From contig NZ_JACHDA010000002.1 of assembly GCF_014207235.1 (NCBI RefSeq), positions 620,001 through 684,000 of the forward strand: 64,000 nt of DNA, given 5' to 3'. Position numbers and translations under genes: made by a program. This DNA is from Sphingopyxis sp. JAI128 (lineage in GTDB: Bacteria > Pseudomonadota > Alphaproteobacteria > Sphingomonadales > Sphingomonadaceae). Position 1 is the stretch's first letter, and the number at the start of each line of letters is the position of its first letter. Shown piece by piece: positions 24,611 to 29,193 of this stretch. The notes below the pieces were generated by a model that worked only from the letters and a program-made list of their open reading frames with translations, searched no databases and was not told where the DNA came from.

Positions 24611-25242
24611 TGGATCCGCGCCGATGCGGAACCGCGGGGCGTATCGATCAAACCATTGTAAAGGCGCCGGACTTCCCAGCGGAATGGGGTCCCGATCGGC
24701 GCCGATGGTGACACTATTTGTTCAGACATTTCTAAGTTATTTCATCGCTCTACGCCAGGAGGCTGAGGGGTCTCGCCTCGGCGCCGATCTACACCCGGCG
24801 GCCGTCGGATTCCCAAGCCGCGCTCCAACTTGCACCTGATCAACGGCGAGAAGACGGTAGCGCACGGTGCCACCACGTTCCGCAGTGTCCATCAAACCGG
24901 CAGCTGGCCAAACTGACGGTATTCATCGGACGGCAGTCTTGGGCTAAGTCCCGATTGTGAAAGCGCGAGGTTCGAACGTAGCCGAATGACTTCGAATTCG
25001 AGACATCGCAAAATCTAAGGATTTTTCCTTTATTTTCAAAAGTATAGATTTTTGACGGATCTTGGATCGGTGATTTGGGACAAAATATTATTTTATTGTT
25101 ATTTTCCAATATCTTAAGCCATATTGAACAATCGAGTGGGAATGATTCGGGCACGAAAATACGCAAGATTTCCGCGTAGCTTCGAGTTCCAAATATCTGA
25201 AAAAATTTAATTTGTTGCCGATATAAATCGGCGACTATCGAT
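24611..25242. other. Recombination debris with a low-GC patch
   Basis: This stretch holds no intact gene. At 24827-24880 the plus strand reads NLHLINGEKTVAHGATT, which resembles the beta-domain of an acyl-CoA dehydrogenase (L-NGEKT-V-HGA), with no continuation on either side. From about 24990 to 25235 the base composition falls sharply (runs such as AAAATATTATTTTATTG), unlike any neighbour. On the minus strand that patch stays open for about 80 codons without a plausible start. It looks like joined fragments of foreign and local DNA. Confidence 0.5.
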
Positions 25243-25368: not shown

Positions 25369-26109
25369 TCAGAGCGGCGGGATGCGCGTCGAATGCAACT
25401 GGTTGGCGCGCCGGTCGATCGACCACAGCAGGCGTGGTTCGACCGGGTCCCAGTCGATCGCTTGTCCTTCGGTCGGCACCTGCAAGGTCGCGACCAGCTC
25501 CAGCGTCGCGCCCGCCTTTGGCAATCGCAGCGCGTAGATTTCGGGCCGGTCGTGCCCGCTCGCATACATCAGTCCGTCGGCGCCCCAGGCGAAACCCGAG
25601 CAGCTTTTTGGCGCGAAGCGCGCGAGCACAGCATCGGGGAACAGCCAGGATTCGAGCGGGCGGAACGAGGCATCCATACGGACCAGTGTCGTGAAGCGGT
25701 GGTCGCGGCCCGGCTCGCCGCCGCGGTCGTCGTAATTGGCGAAGACCGCCCACCAACTGCCGTCATACCAGTCCATTACCGTAAGCGATCCATACATCCG
25801 GCCAAGGCTGATCGTGCGGATATGACGGAGGGCCTTCGCATCGAAAATCTCGACGCTGCTCGCCATCGGCACTTTCGGATAGTTGGACGCGGCGCAAACA
25901 AGCTCGGCCTTGACCACCGCGCAGCTGTTGAGATGCGGAAACAGCTTCGGATCGCCCTCCCATCCGGCGACGCGCTTACCCGTTGCCTTGTCATATTTTC
26001 CGATCGCATAATTATCGATGGCGTAGACATGGGCGCGATCCGCCGCGACGCCCTGATCGGCCTCGGGCGCCGCGATCGTCGAAAGCGTCAAGAGCGCTGC
26101 GGCGAGCAT
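25369..26109 (-). CDS. Secreted propeller-like protein of unknown function, coupled to a TonB receptor
   Basis: A 246-aa protein with an N-terminal signal peptide (MLAAALLTLSTIAAPEA). Repeated short beta-rich blocks follow (VYAIDNYAIGKYDKATG, SSVEIFDAKALRHIRTISLG, GLMYASGHDRPEIYALRLP), consistent with a small beta-propeller. I recognise no catalytic motif or named family. Its ATG overlaps the stop of the upstream TonB receptor gene (TGATG), so the two are translated together. The shared promoter region carries a Pho box. I infer a periplasmic or surface protein that processes or binds the receptor's substrate, perhaps a phosphorylated compound. It could also simply be a binding protein. Confidence 0.75.
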   Translation of the reverse strand: MLAAALLTLSTIAAPEADQGVAADRAHVYAIDNYAIGKYDKATGKRVAGWEGDPKLFPHLNSCAVVKAELVCAASNYPKVPMASSVEIFDAKALRHIRTISLGRMYGSLTVMDWYDGSWWAVFANYDDRGGEPGRDHRFTTLVRMDASFRPLESWLFPDAVLARFAPKSCSGFAWGADGLMYASGHDRPEIYALRLPKAGATLELVATLQVPTEGQAIDWDPVEPRLLWSIDRRANQLHSTRIPPL

Positions 26110-28697
26110 CAGAAGCGCACCGACGCGCCGACGTAGAAGGTCCGGCCATAGCGTTCGTTCTGGGTGATCCAGTCGCGGCGTTCGCCCTGATATTGGCGTG
26201 TTGGCTCGTCGGTCAGATTCTGCCCTTCGACGAACAGACTGACGTTATCCGTCACGGCGAACGAAGCCTTGGCGTCGAGTCGGCGCAGATCGTCATTATA
26301 TTGATCGCCGAGCATGTCGGCGCCGAGCGAGATCAGCGCGCTGCCGGTGTTGTGATAGGCGATCGACGCTTCTACCGGCCCTTTCTGATAGAACAGCTGC
26401 GCGCCGTAGAGCAGGTTCGACTGCTCGGGGAATGCTGCGGGATCGGCGCGGCCCGGCACCTTCAGCTTCGAATCGATCAGCGTCATGTTCGCTTCGACCC
26501 CGAAGCCCGAGAGGAAGCCGGGAAGGAAGTCGAATTGCTGACGATAGGCGAGCTCTAGCCCGATGATGTCGGCGCTCGTCCCGTTCGCCTTTTGCGAGAA
26601 GCCGAGCACGGCATAGTCGCGCCCGCCATAGCTGGTATCGAGCAGGGTGAAGCTTTGCGTATAGACCGGGTTCTTGACGAACTTCGCGAAGACGCCGACC
26701 GAAAACAGCCCGCCTTTAGCGAAATACCATTCGGCCGAGGCGTCGAGCGCGTCGGCGATATAGGGTTCGAGGTTCGGGTTGCCGAGCGACACCGATCCAT
26801 CGAACGTCCCGTCGTCATTCTGTTCATAGCCGATCTCGCCGCCCGGCGTCAGGTCCGAATAATTGGGGCGGCCGACGCTGCGCGTATAGGCGAGCCGGAC
26901 GATGACTTCGTCATTGGGCTCGATCCGCACGATCAGGCTGGGCAGCCAATTGGTGGAACTGCGCTTCGCGTTCACCGCGACGACGTCGGTTTCATTCTCG
27001 AGCTGGAACCCGCGGATCGTCAGGTCGGTGCGTTCGACGCGAATGCCCGGCGTCACGGTGACTGCCCCGAAATCGAGGTTTGCCATCGCATAGCCGGCGG
27101 CGATATTTTCGCCGAGGTCGATATCGCTCAAGGTCGCATTGGCGAGCGTCGAAGTTTCGTCGAGCACGAAATAGGCGGCATTGGCCGGGTCGGCGGTAAA
27201 GGCATCGACCAGACCGGCGTCGATCACCGGGGTGATCAGATATTCGCGCCCGCCGCCGGCGTATGAGATCACGTCGGCACCCTGAAGTCCGAACTGGCCT
27301 AACGTAAAGCGCGTCGCGGCATTTCCGCCGCGCGTATAGATGCCGTTGTTCGAATCGAAATCCTTGTTGGTCGCGCGATATTTGCCGCCGACCTTGAGCC
27401 AGCTTTCGTCGCCAAAGCCGAGCTTTCGCGTCACATCGAGCCGGCCGGTCCAGATATATTCGTCGCCGCTTTCATCCTGCACCGTATATTGGCGGAATCC
27501 CAGATTGTCCGCCGACAGCGGGGTACGCGGCGCCGCGCTGAACAATTTGTCGGAGAAGTCGAAATCGACCGTCCCCGGATTGCCGCGGAACTGCCACAGC
27601 TGGTTCGGCTCGACGACCTCATTGTGTGAATGTGCCAGACCATAATCAAAGGTCCAGTCGTTCGCCTCGGTCTTACCGCCGATCATGCCGACAAGAACGG
27701 ATTTCTCCTTATATTCAAGCCGCAGCTCCGATCGCTGTTCGGTCACCGTCGATACGCCGGTCAAGCCATCGGGGTTCAATGTTACCGTCCCATTGTCCCG
27801 TTGCGCCTGCGTCGCGAAATCGAGACGGAAGCGCTGCCGATATTCATTCTCGGTGAACTTGCTGTAGAGGCCGCGCGCCCACAGGTGGGTGGTGTCGCCC
27901 GGACGCCAGTCGAGCGAGGCGATGCCGCCAATGCGTTCGCGCTCGAGCTGATAGTCGGTATATTTGATATTGACCGGCATCCCTCCGCGCGCCGCACCGG
28001 GGAACGGTGCCCAATCGTCGGGAAAGATGCCGAAGCTCTGGAAATTGCGCTTCGAATAGCTGCCGCCGATCAGGATCCCGAATTGCTCGTCGCTGCCGAA
28101 ACGGCCGCCGACGCTCGCGTCACCGCGGATCGGATATTTCTCGTTGAGCGTCTGGTATCCGACCTGCGCGTTCGCGGAGAGAATGAACGGCTCGGCGAAG
28201 TCGAACGCCGTCTGGGTCACGAGGTTAATCGTGCCGCCTATGCCCTGCGCGTCGAGGTCGGCGCTCTTCGCTTTGCTCACCTCGACGCGGTTGAGTAACT
28301 GGCCCGAGACGATGTCGAGAGGCAGGCGGCGCGTATTGCCGTCCGGGTTGCCCAGTTCAAAGCCGTTGACGGTATAATTGTTGAGGTCCGACGGAATACC
28401 GCGGATCGCGACATAACGCCCTTCGCCCTGGTCATATTGTACGCCGACGCCCGGCAGCCGCTCGATTACCTCGGCGACGTTTCGATCGGGAAGCTGCCCG
28501 ATCTCGTCGGCCGCGACGACGTCCATGATACCGACAGCATTGCGCTTGATCTCGATCGCGCGCTCCTGCTGCGCGCGCTGCCCCGTGACGACGATCGCTT
28601 CGCCTTCGTCGGCAGGCGCCAAATCCTGAGCGAGAACTGGCGTGGATGTGAGCAGCGCAAGAGCACTGACACCGGCGAGGCAAAGTTTGTTTCGCAT
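26109..28697 (-). CDS. TonB-dependent receptor (Xanthomonas-Caulobacter type), Pho-box controlled
   Basis: An 862-aa outer-membrane receptor with a signal peptide (LAGVSALALLTSTPVLAQ), a TonB box (EAIVVTGQRA) near residue 30 and a plug with LPDRNVAEVIERLPGV, YVAIRGIPSDLNNYTVNG and VEVSKAKSADLDAQGIGG. This set is characteristic of the large Xanthomonas-Caulobacter TonB subfamily that takes up complex organics. The barrel ends in YVGASVRF. The ATG at 28697 has AGGGGAA ahead of it; an in-frame start at 28799 would lie upstream of the Pho box and is unlikely. The downstream propeller gene overlaps its stop. Regulation by phosphate starvation is inferred from three 11-bp-phased repeats 42-70 bp upstream. 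Confidence 0.9.
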   Translation of the reverse strand: MRNKLCLAGVSALALLTSTPVLAQDLAPADEGEAIVVTGQRAQQERAIEIKRNAVGIMDVVAADEIGQLPDRNVAEVIERLPGVGVQYDQGEGRYVAIRGIPSDLNNYTVNGFELGNPDGNTRRLPLDIVSGQLLNRVEVSKAKSADLDAQGIGGTINLVTQTAFDFAEPFILSANAQVGYQTLNEKYPIRGDASVGGRFGSDEQFGILIGGSYSKRNFQSFGIFPDDWAPFPGAARGGMPVNIKYTDYQLERERIGGIASLDWRPGDTTHLWARGLYSKFTENEYRQRFRLDFATQAQRDNGTVTLNPDGLTGVSTVTEQRSELRLEYKEKSVLVGMIGGKTEANDWTFDYGLAHSHNEVVEPNQLWQFRGNPGTVDFDFSDKLFSAAPRTPLSADNLGFRQYTVQDESGDEYIWTGRLDVTRKLGFGDESWLKVGGKYRATNKDFDSNNGIYTRGGNAATRFTLGQFGLQGADVISYAGGGREYLITPVIDAGLVDAFTADPANAAYFVLDETSTLANATLSDIDLGENIAAGYAMANLDFGAVTVTPGIRVERTDLTIRGFQLENETDVVAVNAKRSSTNWLPSLIVRIEPNDEVIVRLAYTRSVGRPNYSDLTPGGEIGYEQNDDGTFDGSVSLGNPNLEPYIADALDASAEWYFAKGGLFSVGVFAKFVKNPVYTQSFTLLDTSYGGRDYAVLGFSQKANGTSADIIGLELAYRQQFDFLPGFLSGFGVEANMTLIDSKLKVPGRADPAAFPEQSNLLYGAQLFYQKGPVEASIAYHNTGSALISLGADMLGDQYNDDLRRLDAKASFAVTDNVSLFVEGQNLTDEPTRQYQGERRDWITQNERYGRTFYVGASVRF

Positions 28698-28738
28698 ATG
28701 GGTTCCCCTGAATGTTGCGGCGCATCTAGATTTGGGCA

Positions 28739-28767
28739 GCGACAATTCTGGGACAGATCGGTGACAG
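28739..28767 (-). promoter_or_regulatory. Pho box with three 11-bp-phased repeats
   Basis: On the minus strand CTGTCAC, CTGTCCC and TTGTCGC begin at 28767, 28756 and 28745, exactly 11 bases apart. The PhoB consensus is two CTGTCAY half-sites separated by four bases. TCTAGA about eight bases further could be the -10. The arrangement places the receptor/propeller operon under PhoB, i.e. induction by phosphate starvation. A further inverted GTGACAG copy lies at 28792-28799. Confidence 0.6.
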
Positions 28768-28782: not shown

Positions 28783-29193
28783 TTGACCACCACTGTCACA
28801 TCTCATGCGCTCCGGGTCGCAAACGCTGTTGCGAACCATTATGCTGGCGATCGAGGTGATGGGCGCAGGCTTGCGGATCCGGCAGGCCTATTCCGACCCA
28901 CACGCCGATCAGCGGCCGCCCCGTTTCGAACGGTTGCATGCCACGACCTCGAGACGAGCGAGCTGTTCGACGATTTTTTCAATCCGATCGCGGGCGACGG
29001 CGCTGCCTTGATCGAGGTTCAGATGCGCCTTCATTTCGTGCTCGAAGCGCTGGCTGAGGCCAATATCCCTCTTTATTCCAACTGCGCTCGCCATCATGCG
29101 TGCCTTGCCCTTGACCGGGCGACTGCTGCTCTGGCCAGCGCGCAGGACAAGAGCCGCCTCGAGCGCCGCGCCGACTGGATCGAGGCGCGTTAA
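28783..29193 (+). pseudogene. Possible C-terminal remnant of a DUF2254-type membrane protein
   Basis: The frame contains ELFDDFFNPIAGDGAALIEVQ and YSNCARHHACLALDRATAAL, which resemble the soluble C-terminal part of DUF2254 proteins as I remember them. The N-terminal 45 codons look non-coding and there is no ribosome site or membrane segment. A minus-strand frame of 98 codons (28909-29205) overlaps it and cannot be excluded. The stretch 28800-29248 otherwise holds nothing I recognise. Confidence 0.3.

Follow-up and report, generated by a model that had tools for sequence, protein, structure and literature searches.

A candidate PhoB-controlled operon pairing a TonB-dependent receptor with a propeller protein of an unnamed family in Sphingopyxis sp. 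JAI128

The stretch of Sphingopyxis sp. JAI128 DNA analyzed here (64,000 nucleotides, hereafter the window) contains a gene for a TonB-dependent receptor that is followed immediately by a gene for a small propeller-like protein and is preceded by a Pho box. On balance, and judging from sequence comparison, we favor the view that the two genes form a PhoB-activated operon that would scavenge organic phosphorus, with the propeller, a member of a new family, as the partner that handles the ligand. Systems in which a TonB receptor under Pho control is encoded together with an exported protein are known in kind; what appears to be new is the family of the propeller, along with the cyclase-type fold of its members and the fusion to phosphodiester glycosidase. 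The coordinates of the relevant features are collected in Table 1.

The Pho box and the genes it precedes

Read on the minus strand, the box consists of CTGTCAC (28767-28761), CTGTCCC (28756-28750), and TTGTCGC (28745-28739), separated by CGAT and AGAA, and it lies 42-70 base pairs (bp) upstream of the start codon of the receptor gene (ATG at 28697). This reading confirms what a preliminary description of the window, made from the sequence alone, had pointed out, namely, three CTGTCAC-like repeats at an exact phase of 11 bp (28767, 28756, and 28745). The pattern CTGTCAC-N4-CTGTCAC-N4-CTGTCAC, allowed up to three mismatches, was found once in the window and not at all in 100 shuffles. In the genome as a whole (4,100,189 bases), the box was the sole match to three units of CTGTCAY at up to three mismatches, and it matched at exactly three; a reversed-pattern control with the same mismatch limit gave no match in the same genome. 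The whole-genome count was made with the untuned CTGTCAY pattern, an earlier pattern having had its third unit loosened to fit the site.

Alignment of seven promoters revealed two further elements. Downstream of the box, CTA is kept in all seven promoters and CTAG in six, which marks TCTAGAT as a candidate -10 region; a scan with the sigma-70 consensus does not list this heptamer. Some 25 bp upstream of the box is an inverted copy of the Pho unit, TGTGACAG, whose TGAC is kept in all seven promoters, and TGACA is also present just upstream of the pstS-like box in two other loci (L130 and L133; loci are referred to by L numbers).

The receptor scores 614.2 bits against TIGR01782, well above the curated cut-off of 310, and its assignment to the Xanthomonas-Caulobacter type in the preliminary description was therefore correct. 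Pfam recognizes its plug and barrel domains (PF07715 and PF00593); the Pfam and NCBIfam scans began at 28694, without the first residues. The receptor stop codon (TGA) and the ATG of the propeller gene have one base in common, at 26109, as had also been noted. An overlap of one to seven bases recurs in 22 distinct loci, the window included, and receptor and propeller are probably translationally coupled. The 246-residue protein had further been described as exported. Many of its relatives do have ordinary-looking signal peptides, as judged by eye and without a predictor, but the window protein begins with MLAAALLTLSTIAAPEADQG, which is short and hydrophobic and contains no basic residue, and its own signal looks weak, again by eye. 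The description thus suits many members of the family better than it does the member in the window.

Table 1. Features of the receptor/propeller locus in the window
Feature	Position	Strand	Basis or remarks
Pho box made of three 7-bp units in 11-bp phase	28739..28767	minus	CTGTCAC, CTGTCCC, TTGTCGC
Candidate -10 region TCTAGAT	28724..28730	minus	Promoter alignment; putative function
Inverted Pho half-site TGTGACAG	28793..28800	minus	Promoter alignment
TonB-dependent receptor, 862 residues, Xanthomonas-Caulobacter type (TIGR01782)	26109..28697	minus	Plug and barrel domains
Propeller protein, 246 residues, predicted five-bladed beta-propeller of glutaminyl-cyclase type	25369..26109	minus	Open reading frame, model

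Recurrence of the box and of the gene pair

Within the order, the propeller was detected in 22 of 296 genomes at an E value of 1e-5. A search of a genome collection found 254 relatives of the propeller, and the 80 that matched the query best were retained. After duplicates had been removed, 95 distinct propeller loci were available. Among the best 80 of 254, the closest named relatives (94% and 92% identity) are from Sphingopyxis. In 49 of the 95 loci a related receptor gene is located upstream on the same strand, at a distance of up to 5.2 kilobases (kb).

Because fitting to the target was to be avoided, the matrix with which we scored these promoters was trained on pstS-like promoters only. 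Seeded with CTGTCAT, the unit matrix was refined on 29 such promoters of the family (29 of 30 training loci, L155 being left out as too short). It took on the known form of the Pho box, (C)TGTCAY plus four A-rich bases, and 28 of the 29 training promoters scored at least 13, as is expected of a training set, with one promoter that does not fit. With this matrix the window box scored 17.3. Receptor promoters of propeller operons scored at least 12 in 25 of 47 cases and at least 8 in 32, as compared to 16 and 36, respectively, of the 524 control promoters in those loci (L120, one of the 95 loci, was left out of the receptor count, its receptor being cut by a contig end). The spacing was specific: at a score of at least 11, there were 25 receptor promoters with units 11 bp apart versus 0-3 at spacings of 8-10 and 12-15 bp. 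An earlier, hand-made matrix had given scores of at least 10 in 13 of 46 receptor regions, as against 12 of the 2,068 stretches tiled as controls. The Sphingopyxis relatives L048 and L049 have a box much like that of the window, and phased units scoring 12.0 to 16.1 occur in L050-L052 (Sphingopyxis) and in L053 (Sphingomonas colocasiae). Some of the low scores are due to mis-called starts; L088, for example, scores 2.4, while L178, which carries the box seen in L088, scores 19.7. In the genome of the window itself, the pstS-like promoter (L130) carries the same kind of units, CTGTCACAAACGCGTCAC, and a gene for PhoB (TIGR02154, 339.3 bits, cut-off 296.2) is located about 5 kb from the pstS-like gene.

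A second set of loci was selected by the receptor rather than by the propeller. With orthologues defined by an identity of at least 55% at an E value of 1e-150, and four candidates scored per genome, a close orthologue of the receptor was found in 11 of 199 genomes. In 10 of the 11 (window included) the propeller gene follows directly downstream, and a box scoring at least 12 precedes 10 of the 11 (window included). Seven of the 11 carry boxes that also occur in the first set, so that the counts from the two sets depend on each other in part; the loci new to this set, four in number, score 20.4, 17.6, 13.2, and 9.6. One locus, L171, has the receptor and the box with no propeller downstream, and the propeller of that genome sits elsewhere. 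Receptor and propeller usually, though not obligatorily, occur as a pair, and the phased repeats that the preliminary description expected before orthologous pairs recur in both sets, although not universally.

Propeller genes without a related receptor were also inspected. At least one site scoring 11 or more was found within 6.5 kb upstream in 18 of 47 such loci, a figure that stands without a control set. Examples of strong boxes are those of L044 (25.8), L030 (22.3), and L104 (19.6), and in L044 and L030 the box comes shortly before the propeller gene. The interval 5597-5908 of L030, like the same place in L072 (Sphingobium fontiphilum), combines the box upstream of the propeller with a 62-residue stretch that is 65% identical to the receptor C-terminus, and a CTP synthase-like gene (by eye) lies on the other side. 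This stretch may be what is left of a receptor gene that was lost while the box and the propeller were kept.

More distant searches returned little. No relative of the propeller was confirmed in viral contigs. A class-wide profile search recovered the genome of the window alone among 385, an absence that is weak evidence because at most seven candidates per genome were scored.

Phosphorus genes beside the propeller and the fold of the protein

Partner genes were counted on the same strand and within 3.5 kb in the 95 loci. An EEP-family gene is present in 19 of them, PhoD in 13, a phosphonate-binding-type protein in 10, and phosphodiester glycosidase (NAGPA) in four. At least one of these four phosphorus partners is found in 35 of the 95 loci, the receptor is the sole part in 38, a gene of a cluster designated c6 stands alone in one, and none of the scanned parts is found in 21, some contigs being short (L080, counted among the 21, does have a receptor, which was missed by the distance limit). 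Representatives matched the Pfam families PhoD (E value 2.6e-100), Phosphonate-bd (6.8e-65), Exo_endo_phos (4.6e-10), and NAGPA (7.4e-24). In L041, L042, and L045, NAGPA and propeller form a single protein of 597-611 residues encoded directly after the receptor, and in L046 the two are neighboring genes. For comparison, 40 PhoD matches (38 over the cut-off) and 14 NAGPA matches were counted in the background of 29 whole genomes from the family; the genome of the window has two PhoD genes, both away from the pair. Because the partners all concern phosphorus esters or phosphonates, they lend independent support to an organic-phosphorus function, although 60 of the 95 loci are without them.

The c6 cluster comprises proteins of roughly 270-390 residues encoded in 15 of the 95 loci, mostly from Sphingobium (for example, L059 6668-7831 and L064 6644-7807), and in several loci the gene lies between the EEP-family gene and the propeller gene. 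One representative weakly resembles the TonB-receptor barrel (26.5 bits, cut-off 27). The c6 protein is perhaps a plug-less outer-membrane barrel of the same operon.

What kind of protein is the propeller? The window protein has no match in Pfam at an E value of 1 or in PHROGs at 0.1, and none of 22 members of the family matches NCBIfam at 0.01. A search of PDB sequences returned designed propellers and weak matches only. Taken as noise were an NCBIfam linaridin match of the window protein (E value 0.28, under the cut-off) and three Pfam models that each matched one member of the 22 relatives (0.005 to 0.09). An AlphaFold2 model built from 22 sequences was of high confidence (predicted local distance difference test score 93.3, predicted template modeling score 0.91). 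Foldseek ranked glutaminyl cyclases first and second, and VIA-align likewise placed them at the top (3mbr with a Z score of 21.4, a root-mean-square deviation of 2.7, and 212 of 246 residues aligned; 2iwa with 21.2; 3nol with 21.1), followed by weaker matches to NHL domains (from 16.6), squid DFPase (15.5), and a Bacillus phytase (1poo, 13.9). From the structural match and the list of strands, the propeller is confidently predicted to be five-bladed.

Ten residues are invariant in all 95 loci (Q19, H59, S75, N76, S108, Y126, S171, H186, E190, and Q216), E190 being the only acidic residue so conserved. Five of them (Q19, H59, S108, S171, and Q216) are placed no more than two residues from where a predicted strand starts (20-23, 60-66, 108-115, 172-175, and 218-220), an arrangement that would fit with their lining a shared central pocket.

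Beta-propeller phytases are six-bladed and have clustered acidic residues at their calcium sites. No phytase family (we take PF02333 and PF13449 to be the beta-propeller phytase and phytase-like models) was among the matches of the 22 members at an E value of 0.1, and the fold is closest to that of glutaminyl cyclase. The idea of a phytase-like propeller, which the preliminary description had entertained, is therefore not supported.

The proposed uptake unit, its alternatives, and related systems

In the scheme that we favor, phosphate starvation would lead PhoB to bind the box at 28739-28767 and thereby switch on the receptor gene. The receptor, together with TonB, would carry an organic ligand with a phosphate group through the outer membrane, most probably a phosphodiester or a product of its breakdown. 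Synthesis of the propeller would keep pace with that of the receptor, and the propeller, residing either at the outer membrane or in the periplasm, would then bind or pre-process the ligand at the residues that are identical in all relatives examined. In this division of labor, the phosphate-ester bond would be cut mainly by partner phosphoesterases (PhoD, EEP-family, and phosphodiester glycosidase), which in some relatives adjoin the propeller or are fused to it. The invariant residues stay while the partner enzymes change, and hence we infer a common ligand. PhoB control and the capture of organic phosphorus, both put forward in the preliminary description, are thus supported by the recurrence of the box and, in part of the relatives, by PhoD, EEP-family, NAGPA, and phosphonate-binding neighbors, whereas the phytase-like propeller was not borne out.

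Several observations weigh against this scheme. No phosphoesterase gene adjoins the pair in the window, and the genome of the window has no NAGPA match. Across the sample, which is drawn from the relatives closest to the query, 60 of the 95 loci lack all four phosphorus partners, 21 of them also lacking a related receptor by the distance rule, and the background count covered PhoD and NAGPA. A single gene order accounts for 10 of the 13 PhoD loci, nine of these being titled Phenylobacterium, and the PhoD loci are for that reason close to a single event. As to the box, 22 of the 47 receptor promoters score below 12 and 15 below 8, and 29 of the 47 loci without a related receptor have no site scoring at least 11 in up to 6.5 kb upstream. 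The Fisher p value for receptor versus control promoters at a score of at least 12 (2.6e-20) overstates the significance because the loci are related. Finally, the genes that supplied the training promoters are pstS-like by matches to TIGR02136 that were found in 57 of 59 genomes, all under the curated cut-off.

A more specific proposal, which we offer tentatively and with some doubt, is that the propeller represents a new family with a new activity. It would be a module with the glutaminyl-cyclase fold but no longer with the cyclase residues, and it would handle one common phosphorus ligand (or carry out a second chemical step) for several different phosphoesterases in alphaproteobacteria, serving Pho-controlled uptake units of the outer membrane as an exchangeable component.

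Might the propeller itself be a hydrolase, using its conserved His, Glu, Asn, and Gln residues, possibly with a metal site at H59, H186, and E190, to cleave a phosphoester or other bond? Propeller folds include hydrolases, as the matches to squid DFPase and Bacillus phytase illustrate; H59, N76, H186, and E190 are among the residues that never vary; and receptor and propeller are the sole parts found in the window and in 38 of the 95 loci. We nonetheless consider this explanation rather unlikely, since a separate phosphoesterase or phosphonate-binding-type gene is nearby in 31 of the 95 loci and the glycosidase is fused or adjacent in four more, the closest fold is that of glutaminyl cyclase and not of a phosphohydrolase, and the meeting of the conserved residues in one pocket is suggested by predicted strands and not by coordinates.

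Another explanation, decidedly unlikely in our judgment, is that the propeller activates or tethers secreted phosphatases instead of binding a small ligand, as has been proposed for ElpS of Caulobacter. Published excerpts describe ElpS as a starvation-induced, exported protein that is encoded beside a TonB receptor, did not itself act as a phosphatase, and when overproduced raises the level of alkaline phosphatase in the supernatant (PMC2996285), and such a function would suit the three loci in which propeller and NAGPA are fused. Yet, according to the same excerpts, deletion of elpS left phosphatase activity unchanged (PMC2996285), and ElpS, at about 50 kilodaltons, is likened to the propeller by description and not by sequence. 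Also, the diversity of families among the partner enzymes favors a shared ligand over a shared docking surface. As the hydrolase and tether explanations share the regulatory and phosphorus part of the preferred scheme, their likelihoods overlap with its own, and the likelihoods do not sum to one.

TonB receptors have many substrates, and a clear box is missing from nearly half of the receptor promoters. It is conceivable on these grounds, but very unlikely, that the receptor imports a cargo free of phosphorus, such as a siderophore or a glycan, and that the box arose by chance or serves another regulator with the same type of repeat: the box is unique in the genome, its enrichment and its 11-bp spacing were detected with a matrix trained on pstS-like promoters, and part of the relatives have phosphoesterase partners.

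Lastly, that the propeller acts as a true glutaminyl cyclase on the N-termini of exported proteins, its operon context being incidental, is highly improbable in spite of the structural match to 3mbr and a weak profile alignment (probability 12%, E value 0.0023) to six PF05096 proteins of the order, for PF05096 is absent among the matches of the 22 members at an E value of 0.1, the genome has a separate, clear PF05096 cyclase (303.3 bits), and the box and partner genes point to phosphorus. The weak alignment pairs an N-terminal QG motif and sets the cyclase LFVTGKxWPxL against LYxxGHxxPEL; in it the Glu of LYE meets A30 and the Lys of TGK meets H186. We take these two cyclase residues to be the catalytic ones.

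How does the operon compare with known systems? Excerpts of an account of the PhoB regulon of Caulobacter crescentus list a variety of TonB receptors that probably serve the uptake of alternative phosphate donors, along with exonucleases, a phytase, phosphatases, and a phosphodiesterase (PMC11208175). That regulon is comparable in that it includes TonB receptors together with enzymes for phosphate-containing molecules; the excerpts describe no receptor/propeller operon, and the word "propeller" is absent from the main text (PMC11208175). ElpS and the receptor CC0171 resemble our pair in that an exported starvation protein beside a TonB receptor is thought to aid phosphate mobilization, but ElpS is a lipoprotein released by type II secretion and its receptor is constitutive, according to the excerpts cited above (PMC2996285). 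The XanT-XanP system for xanthosan in Xanthomonas, again from excerpts, likewise consists of a TonB receptor co-transcribed with a phosphodiesterase, such that a sugar phosphodiester is imported and cleaved (PMC12807533). XanP differs in being a 2H phosphoesterase, the system has a role in plant infection, and neither "Pho box" nor "propeller" appears in the main text of that report (PMC12807533). Glutaminyl cyclases of the plant/bacterial type (PF05096; 3mbr, 3nol, and 2iwa) share the propeller fold (Z scores of about 20-21 over 209-212 residues) but differ from the window family, in which none of 22 members has a PF05096 match, the Glu and Lys appear replaced in the weak alignment, and the genomic context is another. 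Searches of the open-licence literature in PMC, subscription journals being largely outside this scope, turned up no description of the propeller family or of a Pho operon of receptor and propeller, and excerpts of PMC9123166 and PMC12041372 likewise had no information on the propeller.

The class of PhoB-regulon TonB receptors is known, but their cargo, to go by these partial sources, is mostly open. A protein family without a name (254 relatives in one scan) is now tied to the Pho regulon, and about a third of the loci analyzed link it to phosphorus genes, which are of four kinds; among these links are direct fusions with phosphodiester glycosidase. With a confident model and invariant residues, this small protein would provide a handle on the organic phosphorus compounds that are imported by sphingomonads and their relatives. 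TonB-dependent uptake of organophosphate insecticides has been suggested in sphingomonads (PMC7142613).

Two minor observations concern the surroundings of the operon and the rest of the genome. An AT-rich stretch (24950-25240), in which the GC content falls to 0.38 as compared to about 0.6 around it, lies just downstream of the operon. Elsewhere in the same genome, L002 (G000:C4:127159-127187) is a triple Pho-box-like site with three mismatches to the loosened pattern, and the gene right after it resembles, by eye, another TonB receptor.

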